Below are positions 1 through 12,585 of a stretch of 22,922 nucleotides of DNA, in pieces (positions within the stretch are counted from its first letter, which is position 1; every line of letters starts with the position of its first letter). Source of the stretch: a virus. The DNA lies in the IMG/VR virus record IMGVR_UViG_3300025941_000102, positions 1-22,922 of that record, one strand, 5' to 3'. The notes below the pieces were generated by a model. It searched no databases. It was not told the origin of the DNA and saw only the letters and a list, made by a program, of their open reading frames with translations. Made by a program: the position numbers and the translations under genes.

Positions 1-512
1 AGGCGGCCTTGCCACCCGTTCGTGGTCCTGTTGTACTTGCTCAGGTCCACTCCGTTCGCAGCGCAGATCGCTTCGAACCGGGGGATGTCGAACCCGGCCT
101 TCGCGAGGCATAGGTTGTTGATCAGGATCGCCAGTTCGTCGCCGCAATGGGCGGGATGCCCCGCTTCGGCGTACCTTGCGCGGTACTCCGCCTTCACGAC
201 GGATTTTTCAGCCTCTTCCACATCTCCCTCGCCGCCATCTTCGTCAGCGTCTTCGTCCACTTCCACGCCAGCCTCTTCGCCGCCTTGCCCATCGTCGTTC
301 TCCTTCATCGTCTCGCCGGTCACTCGCTCGGCTTCCGCGTCCCATTCCTCGTTCCAGCGGTCGAACTCCTCCGTCCCCTCGGGGAACGGGCAGTCAGCCG
401 CCATGAAGCCCGCCGAATGGGCGAGCGCCCCGTTTTCGGACACGGGCAACGGCTCGTTCGACATCAGTTCCGCTGTTGCTGCTGTTATCTGCTTCTTGCT
501 ACGCTTAGCCAT
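1..512 (-). CDS. Hypothetical phage protein, acidic N-terminal half (partial)
   Basis: Runs off the left edge; about 170 codons are visible. The ATG at 512 is preceded by AGGAGA at the right spacing and by a consensus promoter. The protein starts MAKRSKKQ, has a strongly acidic stretch around residues 80-105 and then a more ordered region containing YRARYAEAG, CGDELAIL, ICAANGVDLS and NGWQGR. The last part resembles residues about 55-150 of the gene at 4109-4672 (shared order V-x-x-Y-[RK]-x-RY, LA, ANGV[DE], W-x-GR), so the two are probably distant paralogs. No function recognised. The opposite strand is also open here, but lacks a ribosome site. Confidence 0.8.
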   Translation of the reverse strand, partial: MAKRSKKQITAATAELMSNEPLPVSENGALAHSAGFMAADCPFPEGTEEFDRWNEEWDAEAERVTGETMKENDDGQGGEEAGVEVDEDADEDGGEGDVEEAEKSVVKAEYRARYAEAGHPAHCGDELAILINNLCLAKAGFDIPRFEAICAANGVDLSKYNRTTNGWQGR

Positions 513-559
513 CTTAGTCTCCTGTTGCGGTGCGTGCGGGGCCGCGCGACCGAGCTTGT

Positions 560-606: not shown

Positions 607-849
607 CTAGGCGAACTGGTGGGTTTCGTCGTCCTTGGTCACGGACTCTTCTACAATTACGTAGCTGTTCATTGATTCCGCGCCGGTTGTGATCTGCGTA
701 AGACCGTCGCTCTTCCTTGGCTTGCGATTCAGCGAACGGCCGTGGGCCTTCGCGTGCGCCTTCGCTGCGGATTCAGCCATTTCGTAGGTTTCGTGCGCAC
801 TTGCGCCGCACGGAAAGGCGAATTGGCCGAGGCGGATTAGAATGTACAT
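607..849 (-). CDS. Small hypothetical protein, 80 aa
   Basis: Not recognised. Eighty residues beginning MYILIRLGQFAFPCGASAHE; an Ala/Lys/His-rich helix-like middle (AESAAKAHAKAHGRS) and an acidic tail. The ATG at 849 is chosen because it directly follows the 20-bp leader also found before three other genes, whose AGAAAG is the only Shine-Dalgarno-like element. It is the first gene downstream of the promoter embedded in the inverted repeat at 896-937, and ends 19 bp before the -35 of the next promoter, so it may be a single-gene transcript or read through into 1-512. Role unknown, probably an early accessory protein. Confidence 0.65.
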   Translation of the reverse strand: MYILIRLGQFAFPCGASAHETYEMAESAAKAHAKAHGRSLNRKPRKSDGLTQITTGAESMNSYVIVEESVTKDDETHQFA

Positions 850-869
850 TTGCGTGCTTTCTGGTCATT
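850..869 (-). promoter_or_regulatory. Repeated translation leader, copy A
   Basis: Minus strand AATGACCAGAAAGCACGCAA immediately before the ATG at 849. Identical over 20 bp, and 23 bp counting the start codon, to the leader of the gene at 1441-1992. It contains a weak SD (AGAAAG) and an upstream ATG out of frame with the gene. Confidence 0.75.
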
Positions 870-895
870 CTGACCGGTTGTGGTCTTCGAATACG

Positions 896-937
896 GCAGC
901 GCCGCACCCCGGATCATAACACAGGGCGCGGCGCTGC
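896..937. promoter_or_regulatory. 10-bp perfect inverted repeat around a promoter
   Basis: GCAGCGCCGC (896-905) and its exact reverse complement (928-937) enclose 22 bp that contain the -10 box of the leftward promoter; the right arm overlaps its spacer and the -35. It could be an operator whose occupancy blocks the promoter, or an RNA hairpin ending the gene at 956-1120. The sequence does not decide between the two. Confidence 0.55.
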
Positions 938-941
938 GCAA
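913..941 (-). promoter_or_regulatory. Sigma70-type promoter for the gene at 607-849
   Basis: Minus strand TTGCGC (936-941), 17-bp spacer, TATGAT (913-918), with TG-T before the -10. It lies between the stop at 956 and the leader at 850-869, in the only sizeable gap of this group of genes. Confidence 0.6.
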
Positions 942-955
942 GTAGTCTTTCGGGT

Positions 956-1120
956 TTACCCTTGCGAAGAGAATTTCTCCTGTGTTGCCCGTGCGTCTTC
1001 TTCGGAGTCGAAGGGGCCAATCGCGTCGTAAGAATATTTCGGCTGGTCTGAATCGTAGTAAACGATGTACCAACCGGTTGTCTCTAGTTCGTCTGTCTTC
1101 ACGAATTCGATCTTTTCCAC
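956..1120 (-). CDS. Small hypothetical protein, 54 aa, GTG start
   Basis: Not recognised. The GTG at 1120 overlaps the TAG of the upstream gene by one base (TAGTG), and AAAGGA lies at a suitable distance within the upstream gene, so translation is probably coupled. The 54 residues include TTGWYIVYYDSD and a short acidic helix near the end. The pattern (one beta-rich strand pair, then an acidic helix) is typical of small single-domain phage accessory proteins, but no family is recognised. A longer frame on the same strand (837-1127) is arginine-rich and has no ribosome site; I prefer this one. Confidence 0.6.
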   Translation of the reverse strand: MEKIEFVKTDELETTGWYIVYYDSDQPKYSYDAIGPFDSEEDARATQEKFSSQG

Positions 1121-1428
1121 TATTCACGTCCTTTCCACGGGTTCATCAGGTCCGCCCCTGCCTTCACCTTTTCACGGGTGTCGGCCGGGTGGTATTCGTC
1201 GGGCTCGCCCTCAGCGAAAGGGTCGTGAGGCCATTGCTCGGTGGGAACGTACGGCCTCCATGCCGTTACGCCTTCGATGCTGTCGCACCTGCCGAACTCG
1301 TCCAAGGCCCATTCCACCTCGGTCTTGTCGAGGTTCATGTACTTGGCCAGTTCGCTGGTGCTCGTCCAGCTCTTCCGTATTACGACGCCTTGCGGCGTCC
1401 ATTCGACGGTCTTGATGAGGTTCGTCAT
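1120..1428 (-). CDS. Hypothetical protein, 102 aa, possible winged-helix fold
   Basis: The ATG at 1428 follows AAGGAG at ideal spacing, 12 bp after the stop of the gene at 1441-1992. Residues about 15-50 (GVVIRKSWTSTSELAKYMNLDKTEVEWALDE, given in parts: SELAKYMNLD, EVEWALDEF) have the look of a small helix-turn-helix, which would suit a regulator, but the match is only to the general pattern. The C-terminal half is acidic and proline-containing and ends NPWKGRE. It overlaps the next gene by one base and forms a transcription unit with its neighbours on both sides. Confidence 0.75.
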   Translation of the reverse strand: MTNLIKTVEWTPQGVVIRKSWTSTSELAKYMNLDKTEVEWALDEFGRCDSIEGVTAWRPYVPTEQWPHDPFAEGEPDEYHPADTREKVKAGADLMNPWKGRE

Positions 1429-1440
1429 GTTGTGTGCTCC

Positions 1441-1992
1441 TTAGCGCTTCATCAGTTCTTCGGCGGTGCAGAAAACGACACCGTAAGCGTCCTCACCGAA
1501 AGAGGAGCGAACCCACTTGGTGTCCATTTCCGGCTTTGGCCAGGTTTGGTATGTTGCGTTGGCGGCGAATTCCCTCTTCTCCGGGTGGCGCGGGTTCGTG
1601 CCCGCCGCGCAGAGGCGGAGGATTTTGTCTGTCTCATTCCACCACAGAATCTCCATGAACGGGTTGGCTGTCGTTTCGACGACCTCCTCTTTCGCCCATG
1701 CGAGGCCATCCTCAAAGGCTCGCGCTAGTTCGTTGCGTTCGTCGGCCGGGTCGCCGAATTCCAGGTCCTCTCCTTCCTTGTACGGCCTGTAGCTTTCAAT
1801 GGTCACTTCGGCGATGAATTCCTCCTTTATGAACTCCTCTCGGTGTTCCGGCGTGTTCCACTCTTCGGTGGCCATAACGTCGAAGAATCCGAACGTCTGA
1901 AGGTAGGCTTTGTCCGCCTCTTCGCGGCTGTTGGCGCTTATTACCATCGCGCCGCCTCGGCTGTCGTAATGTCCGTAAAGGTAGAGGGTCAT
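1441..1992 (-). CDS. Hypothetical acidic protein, 183 aa
   Basis: The largest complete gene of the leftward block; not recognised. It starts MTLYLYGHYDSRGGAMVISA; an N-terminal beta-strand/helix unit is followed by a strongly acidic middle (residues about 50-105, rich in Glu) and a Trp-containing C-terminal third ending EELMKR. No membrane segment or signal peptide. Start chosen at 1992, directly after copy B of the repeated leader and with no other SD. A possible upstream reading from the leader ATG (frame ending at 1796) is out of frame with it. It is followed 12 bp later by the gene at 1120-1428. Role unknown. Confidence 0.75.
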   Translation of the reverse strand: MTLYLYGHYDSRGGAMVISANSREEADKAYLQTFGFFDVMATEEWNTPEHREEFIKEEFIAEVTIESYRPYKEGEDLEFGDPADERNELARAFEDGLAWAKEEVVETTANPFMEILWWNETDKILRLCAAGTNPRHPEKREFAANATYQTWPKPEMDTKWVRSSFGEDAYGVVFCTAEELMKR

Positions 1993-2012
1993 TTGCGTGC
2001 TTTCTGGTCATT
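1993..2012 (-). promoter_or_regulatory. Repeated translation leader, copy B
   Basis: Same 20 bp as copy A, ending at the ATG at 1992. The upstream ATG inside it opens a long overlapping frame (down to 1796) in another register, so ribosomes starting there would miss the main gene. Confidence 0.75.
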
Positions 2013-2027
2013 TGTTGGGCTTGTGGT

Positions 2028-2051
2028 GCCGCCCCGCCGAAACGGGGCGGC
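2028..2051 (-). terminator. Perfect hairpin between 2060 gene and leader B
   Basis: GCCGCCCCG (2028-2036) and CGGGGCGGC (2043-2051), a 9-bp perfect stem with a 6-nt loop, lies 8 bp past the stop of the gene at 2060-2278. No U-run follows, so it may act as a processing or leader structure rather than a classical intrinsic terminator. Confidence 0.5.
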
Positions 2052-2059
2052 TGTTCTGG

Positions 2060-2278
2060 CTACTTCAGGTCTTCGGCGGGGGGCGTGTAACGCCCTGCCG
2101 CGATTTCGGCCTTTATGAAGGCTTGTCTCTCCTCCTCGGCTTGGATGTCTTCCTCCCATATTACCTCGATTTCGAGATAGGCGAAGATGTGGTCGATGAG
2201 TTCTACGCCTTCGTAGCCTCGCTCGATTCCGTCTTGCAGCGCTTCGTAGGCTTTCGCCTGGCTTCTTGTGTGTGTCAT
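2060..2278 (-). CDS. Small acidic hypothetical protein, 72 aa
   Basis: Not recognised. The ATG at 2278 overlaps the upstream stop (TAATG), and GGGAGG lies about 14 bp before it, so this start is preferred to an upstream one that would add six residues. The protein is predicted all-helical and acidic (SQAKAYEALQDGIERGYEG, then IFAYLEIEVIWEEDIQAEEE). No transmembrane segment. Translated together with the gene at 2278-2535, and followed by the hairpin at 2028-2051. Confidence 0.7.
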   Translation of the reverse strand: MTHTRSQAKAYEALQDGIERGYEGVELIDHIFAYLEIEVIWEEDIQAEEERQAFIKAEIAAGRYTPPAEDLK

Positions 2279-2535
2279 TACGCCACGTCCTCCCACTTCA
2301 TCGTCTTGTTGTTTACCATGTATTCGCCGTCCGCACCGAAAATGGCGAAGACCGTTCCGGGGCCTCCGCCGGGGAGAAGGTCCCCGTCTTCGCTGATGCG
2401 AACCTCGAGAATCTCCTGTCCTTCGATCGGTTCCAGCTTCTGGTCACTTCGGCTGACGTTCGCCAGCTTCTGGGCGAGCTTCGCGTTTCCGATGAACGGA
2501 AAAACGAAGTCGTTGTTGGTCTTACCTCTGCTCAT
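2278..2535 (-). CDS. Hypothetical protein, 85 aa, paralog of the 2605-2865 gene
   Basis: Function unknown. Aligns along its length with the next gene upstream: both have N-D-F-x-F near the start, a helix, then [IV]LE[VI]R, a Gly/Pro-rich turn, [AV-containing] FGA, a MV-x-N strand and a C-terminal W-[EV]-[DQ]-VA. The two have diverged strongly in between, so the duplication is old. It is a small beta-rich domain with no catalytic motif visible. The ATG at 2535 follows copy C of the repeated leader; its stop overlaps the start of the gene at 2060-2278. Confidence 0.75.
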   Translation of the reverse strand: MSRGKTNNDFVFPFIGNAKLAQKLANVSRSDQKLEPIEGQEILEVRISEDGDLLPGGGPGTVFAIFGADGEYMVNNKTMKWEDVA

Positions 2536-2555
2536 TTGCGACCTTTCTGGTCATT
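2536..2555 (-). promoter_or_regulatory. Repeated translation leader, copy C
   Basis: Differs from copies A and B at two adjacent bases only (GGTCGC instead of GCACGC). Its upstream ATG opens a 10-codon frame ending shortly after the real start. Confidence 0.7.
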
Positions 2556-2565
2556 TGTGACGGTT

Positions 2566-2583
2566 GGCCGCATTTGCGCGGCC
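2566..2583 (-). terminator. Hairpin between 2605 gene and leader C
   Basis: GGCCGC (2566-2571) pairs with GCGGCC (2578-2583) around a 6-nt loop, 21 bp after the stop of the gene at 2605-2865 and 10 bp before leader C. No U-run. Same placement as the hairpins before leaders A and B. Confidence 0.4.
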
Positions 2584-2604
2584 GTTCTGCTCGTTTGTGG
2601 CTGG

Positions 2605-2865
2605 TTACGCCACTTGCACCCATTCGCAGCCTCGGTTGCTTACCATCAGTTCGTGCGTGTCGCGGCCTTCGATAGCCCCGAAGACACCGAAAATGCCGGT
2701 CCCCTCCGCTGGTTCCATCATTCCGTCGATTAGGCGGATTTCTAGGACCGAGGCCACCGGAAGCGGCGCGCGAACGTTGCGAAGCCAGTATTCGTTGGCT
2801 TCCTTGAGGCCAAGCGTGGCGAGGTGGTGCGAATTAAAGATAAAGTCCTTGCTGTCGTTCGTCAT
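2605..2865 (-). CDS. Hypothetical protein, 86 aa, paralog of the 2278-2535 gene
   Basis: First gene of the leftward block. Starts MTNDSKDFIFNSHHLATLGL and ends CEWVQVA; the core VLEIRLIDG, FGVFGA and LMVSN matches the downstream paralog. Start at 2865 is after the repeated leader; because this copy of the leader is two bases longer, its upstream ATG is here in frame and would add MIRKHAQ. I prefer 2865 because the other three leaders force the downstream start. Function unknown; beta-rich, soluble. Confidence 0.7.
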   Translation of the reverse strand: MTNDSKDFIFNSHHLATLGLKEANEYWLRNVRAPLPVASVLEIRLIDGMMEPAEGTGIFGVFGAIEGRDTHELMVSNRGCEWVQVA

Positions 2866-2887
2866 TTGTGCGTGCTTTCTGATCATT
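2866..2887 (-). promoter_or_regulatory. Repeated translation leader, copy D
   Basis: Same element with one substitution (GATCAG for GACCAG) and two extra bases before the ATG at 2865. The internal ATG becomes in-frame with the gene, unlike copies A-C. Confidence 0.65.
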
Positions 2888-2930: not shown

Positions 2931-2959
2931 AGCAAAGCACGGCCGGGGCGCGCCCGCAA
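2931..2959 (-). promoter_or_regulatory. Weak promoter candidate for leftward block
   Basis: Minus strand TTGCGG (2954-2959), 17 bp, TG-C, TTTGCT (2931-2936). Only half of each hexamer matches consensus, but the spacing and the CCGTGC before the -10 match the strong promoter at 560-588. Lies between the leftward block and the rightward gene at 3053. Confidence 0.35.
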
Positions 2960-2998: not shown

Positions 2999-3027
2999 TT
3001 GACAAGGTACGCAGGGCGTGCTAAGAT
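2999..3027 (+). promoter_or_regulatory. Sigma70-type promoter for zinc-ribbon gene
   Basis: TTGACA (2999-3004), 17-bp spacer ending in TG-C, TAAGAT (3022-3027). The ATG at 3053 lies 26 bp further on, giving a very short leader with AGAGGAG. Confidence 0.8.
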
Positions 3028-4108: not shown

Positions 4109-4672
4109 CTAGCGGAGGATCTTGGCGACCCATTCCGCCGGGGCTTCGAGGGTCTCGCCATCCGCGAGGAGCATCACCCCCGCTTCGGCCACCACCGTCC
4201 GGAGGGCAAGCCCGCCGCTCATCCGGTAGCGCCCCTCCCAGCCCTTGCTCTGCGAGGGCCAGCGGCTCTCGCTCGGCTGGAATTCGCCGGCCTCGGAGAG
4301 GACGGTCGGCTCCTCCACGCCGTTCGCGATGAGGATCGCGGCGAAGGACGGGACGTGGATCTTGGACTGCTTGTCCAGCACCTCGCCCGCGAGCGTCGTC
4401 GCCATCCAGTCGTTGTTGGTGCGCTTCTGCCACTTCTGGCGGAGGCCCATCGCGCGTGCGCGATCGCGGTAGCGCAACTTGTACTTGCGCTGCACCTTCG
4501 AGTTGCCGAGCGCGATCTGCTCGTCGATCTCGGCGTCGTCCGCCGCCTCGGCGAGGAGTGCAGCCGCCTCGGCCACGCTATCCTCGATTGTGACAACCGG
4601 GGCGGGTGCCTCGATCGCCGGGGTTGCGGCTTCGACGGTCTCAACCGTCGCGTGTGCGTGCTTCTTGGCCAT
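4109..4672 (-). CDS. Hypothetical phage protein, 187 aa
   Basis: Start at the ATG at 4672, after AGGAGA; longer in-frame extensions run through the promoter and repeats and are not used. The N-terminal ~50 residues are Ala/Glu/Val-rich and low in complexity. The rest is a mixed, ordered domain: VQRKYKLRYRDRARAMG, NNDWMATTLAGEVLD, FAAILIANGVEEP, and WEGRYRMSGG near residue 150. The same order appears in the partial gene at 1-512, so both probably belong to one family with a conserved C-terminal domain. Function unknown; the basic stretch KYKLRYRDRAR could contact nucleic acid. First gene of its leftward transcript, behind the promoter at 4760-4788. Confidence 0.8.
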   Translation of the reverse strand: MAKKHAHATVETVEAATPAIEAPAPVVTIEDSVAEAAALLAEAADDAEIDEQIALGNSKVQRKYKLRYRDRARAMGLRQKWQKRTNNDWMATTLAGEVLDKQSKIHVPSFAAILIANGVEEPTVLSEAGEFQPSESRWPSQSKGWEGRYRMSGGLALRTVVAEAGVMLLADGETLEAPAEWVAKILR

Positions 4673-4759
4673 TTCTGGTCTCCTTTGCGGGGGGTTTGCA
4701 ATCCCCGCGTGTCCCGCCCCGGCCTCGCCGTGGGCGGTGTCGGCCTCGCCGACGTTCGC

Positions 4760-7520: not shown

Positions 7521-9856
7521 TGGCAGCCGTCGAAAGAGTATTCGGAAATTCCGTCGGACATACGAACTATGTCGGCGGACCGAACCGGCCGGAAGAGGAC
7601 CTCCCGTACGACGCGGCGGTTCGCGATTTGATCGACGACGCCAAGTCGTACGAAGAATCGACCCTCATGCCGGACCGTGAGGAAAATCTGGAGTATTTCT
7701 ACGGGGAAACTCCCGCCCCGGAGGGTGAAGGGACTTCGACGGCGATCTCGACGGATTACCGCGACACCGTGATGGCGATCATACCTTCGCTGATGCGAAT
7801 CTTCACATCCGCGGAACACGTCATTAGCTGCCAGCCAAACTGGGCAGGCCAGGAGGAAGCAGCGAAACAGTGCACGGATTATCTTCAGTTTATGTTCTGG
7901 GAGGATAATCCGGGGTTCCTGATCCTTCACGACGTGTTCAAAGATTCCCTGCGCTGCAAGATTGGCGTTGTCAAGTGGTACACCGAGAATGAAGAAGAGG
8001 TAACGCAGCAAACCTATCGGAACATTACCTCCGAGCAACTACAACTAATTATCTCCGAGAATCCATCGGTGCAAGTTGTGAACGCTGTTCCCTCACGACG
8101 ATCCCCGATGGGTATGGCCCCGGAGGCCAACCCCGGTCCAGCCCAAGTCTCCCCAGATGAAGGTGAAATGCCGGGCATGCCGCCTCCGGGGCCTCCTCAA
8201 GGTATGGGAATGCCAGGACCAATGGGGCCGCCTCCCCCACCGCCGCAATTGTTCGAGGAAGTTGTACTTCGCTTCGTCAAGTCCAAGCCGATGACGAGGA
8301 TCGAATCGGTACCTCTCGACGAGTTTCGTATCGATCGCCACGCGAAGAACGTCAAATCGGCAAAGCTAGTCGGGCACGACCGAATCACCGACGTTGGTGA
8401 GCTTGTTTCGGCGGGCTACTCTTTGGACGCCTTGGAGGAATATCTTGGCGCGACGTCTACGTTTTCCGTCGACAGACAGTTCCGTAACGCAGGACTTGAT
8501 GAAACTAGCGTTCAGGATGATCTTGATATTCGTTATGGTTGCTACTTTATTCGCATTGATAAGGACGGTGATGGGATTCCCGAACTCCGCGAAATCCACA
8601 CCGTCGGTGATAACCATGTTATCATTCACGATGAGGTAGTTCAGCATCCGAACTACGCCGTGTTCTGCGCGGATCCGGAACCCCACACGGTGATCGGCGA
8701 TACCCCGGCGGAACTGGTCAAGGACATTCAGGTCATCAAGACGAACATGCTGCGGGGTTCGTTGGATTCCCTCGCGCAGTCGATTTGGCCCCGCGTGGTG
8801 TTCAACGAGACCCTCGTGAGCGCCGAAGACGTTTTGAACGACGAGATTGGCGCAGCGATCAGAACGCGCGGCGATCCGGCCAATACGGTACAGTCTCTCC
8901 AACACCTGTTTGTCGGCCAGCCGGTATTTCAGATGTTCGAAGTGATGGAGACACTCCGGCAGCAGCGAACTGGTATTTCGGACGCTTCTAAGGGCGTCGA
9001 TCCTAAGGCGCTCCAATCAACGGCGCTCCAAGGGGTCGACGCCATTGTTACCGGTGCTCAGGAGAGAATAGAGCTATGCGCTCGGGTCCTCGCCGAAACT
9101 GGTATGAAAGACTTGTTTCAAGGTTTGTTGCGCGAATGCGTAAACAACCCAAACCAGGAACGGACGGTCCAATTAAGGGGAAAGTGGGTAGACATCAACC
9201 CGAGCACGTTCGATCCCTCCATGCGCATTTCGGTGAATCCAACCCTTGGGCGGGGGTCCGATATGACCCGTTTACTGGTTCTCCAAGACGTCAAGCAGAC
9301 GCAGATGATGACGATGGAGAAATACGGGGTGGATAACCCACTATGCGGGCCGATGGAGTTCCGGAATACTCTGACCGACATGATGGCTATCGGGAATATC
9401 AAGAATGTTGACCGGTATTTCAAAGTCATCACTCCAGAGATTATGGCGCAGATTGCGCAGACGCCGAAAGAACCCGACCCGGCACTTATGCTCGCCCAAG
9501 CCGAAATGGAGAAGACTCGCTCGAAGACAGCGTCGGAAATCTCTAAGGCCGACTTCCAGGATCGCAAGCTACGTGTCGACGATGATTTCCGCAGAGATCA
9601 GCTCACTGTTAAGGGGATACTCGATTCGGCTGCCCTCGAAGGCCAATGGGGCGAGCACGTCGATGGAACCCTTCTCCAAATGGCAAACGTCGCCAACGCC
9701 CTCGATAAAATTGACAACGAGGCCGCGAGCACCGACGCGGGCATCCTGAAGACCCACGCCGACATTCAGCAGGGCCAGCAACAGGCTGACATCGCGCAGC
9801 AAGCACAGGACACGGCACAACAGGTAGCAGATGCCCCACCCGACACCGGAGCGTAG
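7520..9856 (+). CDS. Portal protein (P22-type)
   Basis: 778 residues, in the range of P22-type portals. Twelve copies would form the ring at one vertex through which DNA enters and leaves. Recognised by order and content: an acidic N-terminus, a clip/wing region including STDYRDTVMAIIPSLMRIF, ILHDVFKDSLRCKIGVVKW, DEFRIDRHAKN, FIRIDKDGDGIPE, a central helix region (DIQVIKTNMLRGSLDSLAQ), TGISDASKG, and the LGRGSDMTRL part. The C-terminal ~90 residues are Gln/Ala-rich and helical, as in a barrel extension. Odd: residues about 190-243 are a Pro/Gly/Met-rich insert (MPGMPPPGPPQGMGMPG). Its 3' end overlaps the next gene by 26 bp. Confidence 0.93.
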   Translation: MAAVERVFGNSVGHTNYVGGPNRPEEDLPYDAAVRDLIDDAKSYEESTLMPDREENLEYFYGETPAPEGEGTSTAISTDYRDTVMAIIPSLMRIFTSAEHVISCQPNWAGQEEAAKQCTDYLQFMFWEDNPGFLILHDVFKDSLRCKIGVVKWYTENEEEVTQQTYRNITSEQLQLIISENPSVQVVNAVPSRRSPMGMAPEANPGPAQVSPDEGEMPGMPPPGPPQGMGMPGPMGPPPPPPQLFEEVVLRFVKSKPMTRIESVPLDEFRIDRHAKNVKSAKLVGHDRITDVGELVSAGYSLDALEEYLGATSTFSVDRQFRNAGLDETSVQDDLDIRYGCYFIRIDKDGDGIPELREIHTVGDNHVIIHDEVVQHPNYAVFCADPEPHTVIGDTPAELVKDIQVIKTNMLRGSLDSLAQSIWPRVVFNETLVSAEDVLNDEIGAAIRTRGDPANTVQSLQHLFVGQPVFQMFEVMETLRQQRTGISDASKGVDPKALQSTALQGVDAIVTGAQERIELCARVLAETGMKDLFQGLLRECVNNPNQERTVQLRGKWVDINPSTFDPSMRISVNPTLGRGSDMTRLLVLQDVKQTQMMTMEKYGVDNPLCGPMEFRNTLTDMMAIGNIKNVDRYFKVITPEIMAQIAQTPKEPDPALMLAQAEMEKTRSKTASEISKADFQDRKLRVDDDFRRDQLTVKGILDSAALEGQWGEHVDGTLLQMANVANALDKIDNEAASTDAGILKTHADIQQGQQQADIAQQAQDTAQQVADAPPDTGA

Positions 9857-10106: not shown

Positions 10107-11169
10107 TCCAATAGACGACGCCGCGAAGGCGTTTGATAACGATATCGCCTCTGAGTCGAGGCCCGCAAGGGCACCGAAAGAGGATAGTTCTGGTCCGCCC
10201 GAGCGCATGTTTGAGCGCCTCGGTGAACTAGAGACGGACGACGATTCCCCCGCCCGAGCCCCCGGCGACGATGACGAGCCTCCGGAGGTTTATACTGAGG
10301 ACGGCGAGGAAGAAGATGATGAAGTCGGTGAAGAAGTTGACGAGGAGCCTGACGAGGAAGATCAGGAAGGCCCCGATGCGGAGCTTCTATCTAAGGAGTT
10401 TACCGTCATGGTTGACGGTAAAGAGCAGACAGTACCGCTTAAGGAGGCCCTCGAAGGGTACGTACGTACCCAAACATTCCATCAGAGGATGAACGAGGTC
10501 GACGAGGCCAAGAAAATCATCCAACGGACTGCCGCCGACGCCGTTCACAATTACGAATACTCGATGAACATTGCGAAGGAGATCGAGGGATATCTTTCGA
10601 CGCTGGTCCCGCCTGAACCGAACTGGGACGAGGAGTTCAAGAAGGACCCGATCAAAGCTCGCGAGGTTCAGAAATACTACGATCAGGTTCGTGGGTTCCG
10701 GAAGACGCTGCAGGACAAGCTCGGAGAGGCCGCTGCAGAGCGCCAGAAGAGTGATGCTGTCCAGCTTTCGGCCTATGCCGAGGAGGAGGCCAAGAAATTT
10801 GATCGGGCCAACACCAAGCATTGGGCGACGGACCCGAAGCGTAAGCAGAAAGACCTTCAGGCGATGCGCCGAACTGCCCTTGTACAGGGCTTTACGGAGG
10901 AGGAGCTTTCGCAGGTATACGACAGCAGAATGCTGCAGGTTCTTCTCAAGGCATCGAAATACGACAGGATCATGGCCTCGCGGCCGACCCCTGTTCGACA
11001 GGGCAACGGCGCGAAGCCGGTTCCAACCGGAGGCGGTCAACCCCGCGCCAAGGTAGCAACTAGGGGTTTTCAACAGGCATCTAAGCAACTTAGCAAATCT
11101 GGAAGTATCGAGGACGCCGCCGTCGTTTTCGACCAGATCATCAGCAGGGATACCAGAAGGAAGCGCTAG
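10099..11169 (+). CDS. Scaffolding protein (putative)
   Basis: 356 residues, directly before the capsid gene, which is where phages place the scaffold that templates prohead assembly and is later lost. Composition fits: a strongly acidic N-terminal third (residues about 45-95 nearly all Asp/Glu/Gly/Pro), a long helical, charged middle (GYVRTQTFHQRMNEVDEAKK, RGFRKTLQDKLGEAAAERQ) and a basic C-terminus (ISRDTRRKR), like the coat-binding end of P22 scaffold. No catalytic protease motif was seen. The call is by position and composition, not by sequence family. Confidence 0.8.
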   Translation: MADPIDDAAKAFDNDIASESRPARAPKEDSSGPPERMFERLGELETDDDSPARAPGDDDEPPEVYTEDGEEEDDEVGEEVDEEPDEEDQEGPDAELLSKEFTVMVDGKEQTVPLKEALEGYVRTQTFHQRMNEVDEAKKIIQRTAADAVHNYEYSMNIAKEIEGYLSTLVPPEPNWDEEFKKDPIKAREVQKYYDQVRGFRKTLQDKLGEAAAERQKSDAVQLSAYAEEEAKKFDRANTKHWATDPKRKQKDLQAMRRTALVQGFTEEELSQVYDSRMLQVLLKASKYDRIMASRPTPVRQGNGAKPVPTGGGQPRAKVATRGFQQASKQLSKSGSIEDAAVVFDQIISRDTRRKR

Positions 11170-12375: not shown

Positions 12376-12585
12376 ATGCCATTCAAGTCGCAAGCACAGC
12401 GAGGGCTGTTCTACAAGGCAAAGAACGACCCAGCCTTCGCTAAGAAGAAGGGTCTTCCAAAGTCGGTGATAAACGACTTTGTCAATGCCGATCCCGGTGG
12501 GAAGCTTCCGAAAAAGGCCAAGAAAAAGCGCCCGTTGGGCGGAGGCGGCGGAACCCCGTACTATCCGCTGCCGATACGAAGATGA
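12376..12585 (+). CDS. Small basic protein, 69 aa
   Basis: ATG at 12376 after AGGAGA. MPFKSQAQRGLFYKAKNDP at the start recalls a group of small phage proteins beginning MP-[FA]-K-S-x-AQ-R, whose function is not established. The middle (KKKGLPKSVINDFVNADPG) is basic and helical; the C-terminus is KAKKKRP, GGGGG and a tail. The high lysine content suggests DNA or capsid contact. First gene after the capsid gene; overlaps the next one by 4 bp (ATGA). Confidence 0.75.
   Translation: MPFKSQAQRGLFYKAKNDPAFAKKKGLPKSVINDFVNADPGGKLPKKAKKKRPLGGGGGTPYYPLPIRR

Follow-up and report, generated by a model that had tools for sequence, protein, structure and literature searches.

Leader copies at the starts of leftward early genes

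The window, by which we refer to the whole viral record of 22,922 bases, is a fragment of an uncultured phage that encodes a portal of the SU10 type and a large terminase subunit of the Terminase_6 type. Sinorhizobium phage phiM5 and Ochrobactrum phage vB_OspP_OH are among the named phages nearest to it by portal (36% identity), and an alphaproteobacterial host is therefore likely. On its minus strand the 20-mer AATGACCAGAAAGCACGCAA adjoins the ATG of four leftward early genes (Table 1). Copies 1 to 4 carry 0, 0, 2 and 2 mismatches where 0 such copies were expected by chance, and dinucleotide shuffles gave 0 leader matches at up to 3 mismatches; in copy 4 a C to T change is followed by two extra bases before the ATG. 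The initial annotation had described four near-identical leaders before the ATGs at 849, 1992, 2535 and 2865, as well as an ATG within the leader that is out of frame in three copies and in frame in the fourth. Both descriptions agreed with our analysis in coordinates and mismatches, the in-leader ATG lying at offset 19 in the three out-of-frame window copies and at offset 21 in copy 4. A weight-matrix scan across the window returned only the four leader copies and a weaker fifth match at the 5' end of gene r, with leader copies confined to the early block and none in the structural block.

Table 1. Coordinates of leader copies, genes and upstream elements in the window (G001 is a related virus described in the text)
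Feature	Position	Strand	Remarks
Leader copy 1	850-869	-	Exact; behind promoter
Leader copy 2	1993-2012	-	Exact; behind intergenic hairpin
Leader copy 3	2536-2555	-	AATGACCAGAAAGGTCGCAA, 2 mismatches (CA to GT); behind intergenic hairpin
Leader copy 4	2866-2887 (20-mer part 2868-2887)	-	AATGATCAGAAAGCACGCACAA, 22-base form; behind promoter
Gene behind copy 1	607-849	-	80 aa; no relative in G001
Gene behind copy 2	1441-1992	-	183 aa
Gene behind copy 3	2278-2535	-	85 aa; paralogue of copy 4 gene, 33% identity
Gene behind copy 4	2605-2865	-	86 aa; 53% identical to gene of a different G001 slot
Predicted extended -10 promoter before copy 1	913-941	-	TTGCGC-17-TATGAT
Predicted promoter before copy 4	2931-2959	-	TTGCGG-17-TTTGCT
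Intergenic hairpin before copy 2	2028-2051	-	No T run
Intergenic hairpin before copy 3	2566-2583	-	GGCCGC-GCAAAT-GCGGCC, no T run
Leader-like 5' end of gene r	4654-4673	-	MAKKHA..., 4 mismatches, starts AATGGCCAAGAAGCACGCAC
Gene r	4109-4672	-	
Gene p	1-514	-	Distant paralogue of gene r

Outside the window, the exact 20-mer was present in only two viral contigs, which were counted as one virus (G001) because a comparison over 17,533 bases gave 100% identity. In G001 it occurs at two gene starts, at 11054 (ATG offset 20) and 12431 (offset 19), each directly before the ATG; a third copy at 8975 has one mismatch and its in-motif ATG is the start codon of gene r. A search of 84,980 genomes of bacteria and archaea gave no exact match to the 20-mer, and no DNA relative of the region was found in the GenBank phage set. 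Recurrence of the leader in relatives, on which the initial reading of the element depended, was borne out exactly in G001 and not in the 21 other terminase relatives searched. With two independent genomes carrying the leader and 21 relatives without it, the element is restricted to one lineage and may have been duplicated recently, and a role as a general trait of the phage group was ruled out. The evidence base comprises two independent genomes, both of them fragments, and the statistics are partly post hoc. A search of the relatives for start-adjacent repeats recovered mainly short repeats with ordinary Shine-Dalgarno (SD) sequences. One further viral match (L085) falls inside a recT-like coding sequence and was discarded as chance.

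The six leader copies of the two genomes adjoin the starts of genes that belong to at least four unrelated families, and a wider search for relatives of the copy 2 gene and of the copy 4 family returned one weak match and G001 only. Each of copies 1 and 4 in the window, like both copies in G001, lies behind a predicted extended -10 promoter (TTGCGS, 17 bases, TGnT....T), while copies 2 and 3 are preceded by a hairpin and no promoter, and like hairpins also precede genes that lack the leader. The leader was thus independent of both the gene behind it and the element that precedes it.

Gene exchange and conservation at the leader

BLASTN comparison of the window with G001 showed that promoter and leader of copy 1 are orthologous to those of the G001 copy at 12431, and promoter and leader of copy 4 to those of the G001 copy at 11054, with the homology of both slots ending at the ATG. 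The 70 nt before the leader gave z values of 8.2 (copy 1 slot) and 6.3 (copy 4 slot) in comparison to 1.5 and 1.4 for the 200 nt behind the ATG, where the genes are unrelated. Additionally, the homologue of the copy 4 gene in G001 (z 7.4, 53% protein identity) occupies the other slot, behind the leader copy at 12431 (L005:3206), and genes r, q, f and p retain the same order in both viruses. Since orthology of the slots extends as far as the leader and is absent behind it, early genes were exchanged exactly at the leader, which as judged from these alignments is the joint where non-homologous early genes were swapped between two related phages. RecT was not found as a recombination partner.

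In the two orthologous slots, leader and ATG were identical in 46 of 48 columns in comparison to 135 of 176 columns in the flank up to the promoter (Fisher p=0.0017). This contrast was drawn from two slots with short flanks, and it is conservative in that the flank contains conserved promoter boxes. Four of the six leader copies are letter-identical across the two genomes, in flanks that differ at about 23% of columns, which points to selection acting across the entire leader, or else to a recent exchange of leaders between the two viruses. The earlier proposal that the whole leader and not the SD alone is conserved was upheld, as the element has been kept in two viruses with differing surrounding DNA and before unrelated genes. 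The spacing between leader and ATG varies among copies. A common RNA fold of the leader was ruled out, as structures differ among copies.

The swaps raise the main rival to a function in translation, namely that the leader is a recombination joint only: a block of homology with an ordinary weak ribosome site that was spread by duplication or recombination and has remained alike through exchange. This would explain why gene swaps stop exactly at the leader in two slots, and the genes behind copies 3 and 4 are paralogues, so that one copy may have been duplicated together with its gene. However, within-genome recombination alone leaves the letter-identity of four copies across genomes unexplained, unless leaders were recently exchanged, and a swap joint need not coincide with a start codon; we regard this rival as possible but doubtful.

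Alternatively, the leader may be a DNA operator, bound by a transcription regulator of the phage and located at gene starts by happenstance. In favour of this alternative, a predicted promoter lies no more than about 75 bases from copies 1 and 4 and from both G001 copies, and in the copy 4 slot the -10 region nearly repeats the leader in inverted form. It is nevertheless improbable, given that copies 2 and 3 lack a promoter, that the leader sequence has no dyad symmetry and that all copies share one orientation to the gene at 0-2 bases from the ATG.

The inverted near-copy, CGTGCTTTGCTGG(TC), is situated at 2931-2959 (-) in the window and at L005:1753-1781 (+) in G001. It can pair with the leader over up to 14 pairs with one bulge, and shuffles paired as well in 0 of 1000 cases for G001 and 15 of 1000 for the window. 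If the copy 4 transcript started further upstream, the -10 region would hide the leader; this hairpin is probably not transcribed because its bases fit the -10 of a common phage promoter family. That predicted promoter type (TTGACA/TTGCGC-17-TGCTATAAT, extended -10) is found throughout the phage group with 247 pattern matches in the loci examined, and window sites of this type are at 560-588, 913-941 and 2931-2959 (-) and at 2999-3027 (+). One 18-base hairpin, GGCCGCGCAAATGCGGCC, is found before a leader gene in the window (2566-2583) and before an unrelated non-leader gene in G001 (L005:2293-2310), and hairpins may therefore be shuffled modules too. A perfect 12-bp hairpin also follows a gene in G001 (L086:17834-17871), and its loop AAATGACCAGAAAA equals the leader 5' half over 12 exact bases.

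Ribosome pairing, the in-leader ATG and gene r

Leader genes lack the GGAG Shine-Dalgarno found at neighbouring genes, and the AGAAAG of the leader pairs only with a 16S tail of the CUUUCU type. A 16S tail ending in CUUUCU is present in many bacteria, alphaproteobacteria included. Pairing of leader genes with the E. coli-type tail CCUCCUUA was calculated at about 0 kcal/mol (-0.1; copy 3 -3.9) and with the tail CCUCCUUUCU at -4.8 kcal/mol (copy 3 -8.6), the latter applying to hosts whose 16S rRNA ends in CUUUCU. By comparison, neighbouring early genes with GGAG-like sites reach, with one exception, about -6 to -11 kcal/mol, the sites of r, q, g, h, f and p being at about -7 to -11 kcal/mol with CCUCCUUUCU. 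The SD of the leader is weak or non-canonical, unlike the GGAG of its neighbours, and the leader is therefore not simply a good SD that was repeated.

The ATG within the leader has no ribosome site, as pairing was at most -3.2 kcal/mol in five copies, and -4.9 in one with the CUUUCU tail. Across the six copies of the two genomes it precedes the true start by 19, 20 or 21 bases, and the upstream open reading frames (uORFs) that it opens comprise 10, 10, 14, 31, 71 and 93 codons. The upstream-start decoy that the initial annotation had offered as one explanation, or more generally a regulatory uORF, would fit the presence of this ATG in all six copies, but it did not survive the lack of an SD, the three offsets with only one in frame, the range of uORF lengths and an AATG no more conserved than the remaining leader, and is very improbable. 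The variable offset and ORF length likewise leave a conserved coupling device unsupported.

This ATG would be better explained by origin, as the leader spells out the opening codons of gene r (ATG ACC AGA AAG CAC GCA, MTRKHA). Gene r of G001 starts AATGACCAGAAAGCCCGCAA, with one mismatch to the leader (MTRKPA) and its own GGAG site. It is tentatively suggested that the leader arose as a duplicated 5' end of gene r placed before other genes, which concerns origin only and fits either function, translation-start element or joint. Leader-like starts of gene r occur in both viruses (AATGACCAGAAAGCCCGCAA in G001, AATGGCCAAGAAGCACGCAC in the window), and almost every relative has an r gene, with an N-terminus that reads for instance MAKK, MSKK or MARK. 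Against this, copying could have proceeded in the reverse direction, as a partial copy upstream of r in G001 fits a leader that invaded r, and the r frame in the leaders is out of frame with the gene behind. The partial leader (CAGAAAGCGCGCAACCC) lies at L086:8934-8953, 41 bases upstream of the leader-like r start.

Genes r and p belong to a family that lacks annotation and occurs in nearly all relatives, often as two copies per relative on opposite strands; relatives that lack the leader also carry gene r. Gene r had no match in Pfam or PHROG, and its predicted structure (a moderate model, pLDDT 79) matched none among solved structures; its relatives include two uncharacterised proteins of Ochrobactrum phage vB_OspP_OH.

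Interpretation and comparison with known systems

The reading that we favour, held with about even confidence, is that the leader together with its ATG is a portable, non-canonical translation-start element of leftward early genes that also acts as a gene-exchange joint. Ribosomes would load through pairing of AGAAAG with the CUUUCU-3' of a CCUCCUUUCU-type 16S rRNA and would initiate at the ATG 7-9 nt downstream of AGAAAG, with the outer leader bases also contributing to initiation. The whole leader may be constant because the genes share initiation control, exerted in trans by an RNA-binding protein or an RNA, or through a special initiation mode. No candidate regulator was identified in this analysis. 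A more specific form, a translational regulon in which AAUGACCAGAAAGCNCGCAA would be the recognition site for a phage protein or RNA at several early gene starts and in G001 also over the r start codon, is considered unlikely; if true, acquired genes would gain timed translational control at once by recombining behind the leader.

The closest known counterpart is the start-associated sequence (SAS) of cluster K mycobacteriophages (GGGATAGGAGCCC), which has an AGGAG core and 11-19 copies per genome (Pope et al. 2011, PMC3203893). About half of SAS genes also carry an ESAS (PMC3203893), later read as containing a promoter (PMC11373665). Both SAS and the leader are short asymmetric repeats that lie in one orientation a few bases before the ATG of non-structural genes of different families, and the leader too is conserved beyond the part able to pair with 16S rRNA. 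Unlike SAS, the leader is 20 bases long, is unrelated in sequence, contains an ATG and occurs in four copies in a fragmentary genome; AATGACCAGAAAGCACGCAA did not align with GGGATAGGAGCCC within two changes and has no AGGAG core. From its sequence and placement, the leader works like SAS and is not one of them.

Two further systems were compared as far as the citing papers describe them. The mobile PeSL cassettes of T4-type phages consist of an early promoter and a stem-loop (Arbiol et al. 2010; Comeau et al. 2014; cited in PMC4503421). Like these, the leader is a repeated intergenic block at which early genes shuffle between related phages, with promoters and hairpins preceding the joint. Here, by contrast, the repeated unit is a translation leader behind either a promoter (copies 1 and 4) or a hairpin only (copies 2 and 3), and the two elements do not form a unit. 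Lambdoid mosaic joints have conserved boundary sequences at module borders (cited in PMC3029335). They resemble the leader as short homology exactly at the gene border of exchange, with homology ending at the sequence on one side as observed here in two slots. They differ in that one genome carries the leader at several borders and that the leader adjoins start codons. On these published descriptions, PeSL and lambdoid boundary sequences match the leader in the swapping aspect only.

To our knowledge, the role of SAS in mycobacteriophages has remained unexplained since 2011. An unrelated SAS-like element in a podovirus-like phage whose host is probably an alphaproteobacterium suggests that gene-start elements of this shared kind have evolved on more than one occasion, and its position at a gene-swap joint provides a concrete link between translation signals and the shuffling of early genes.
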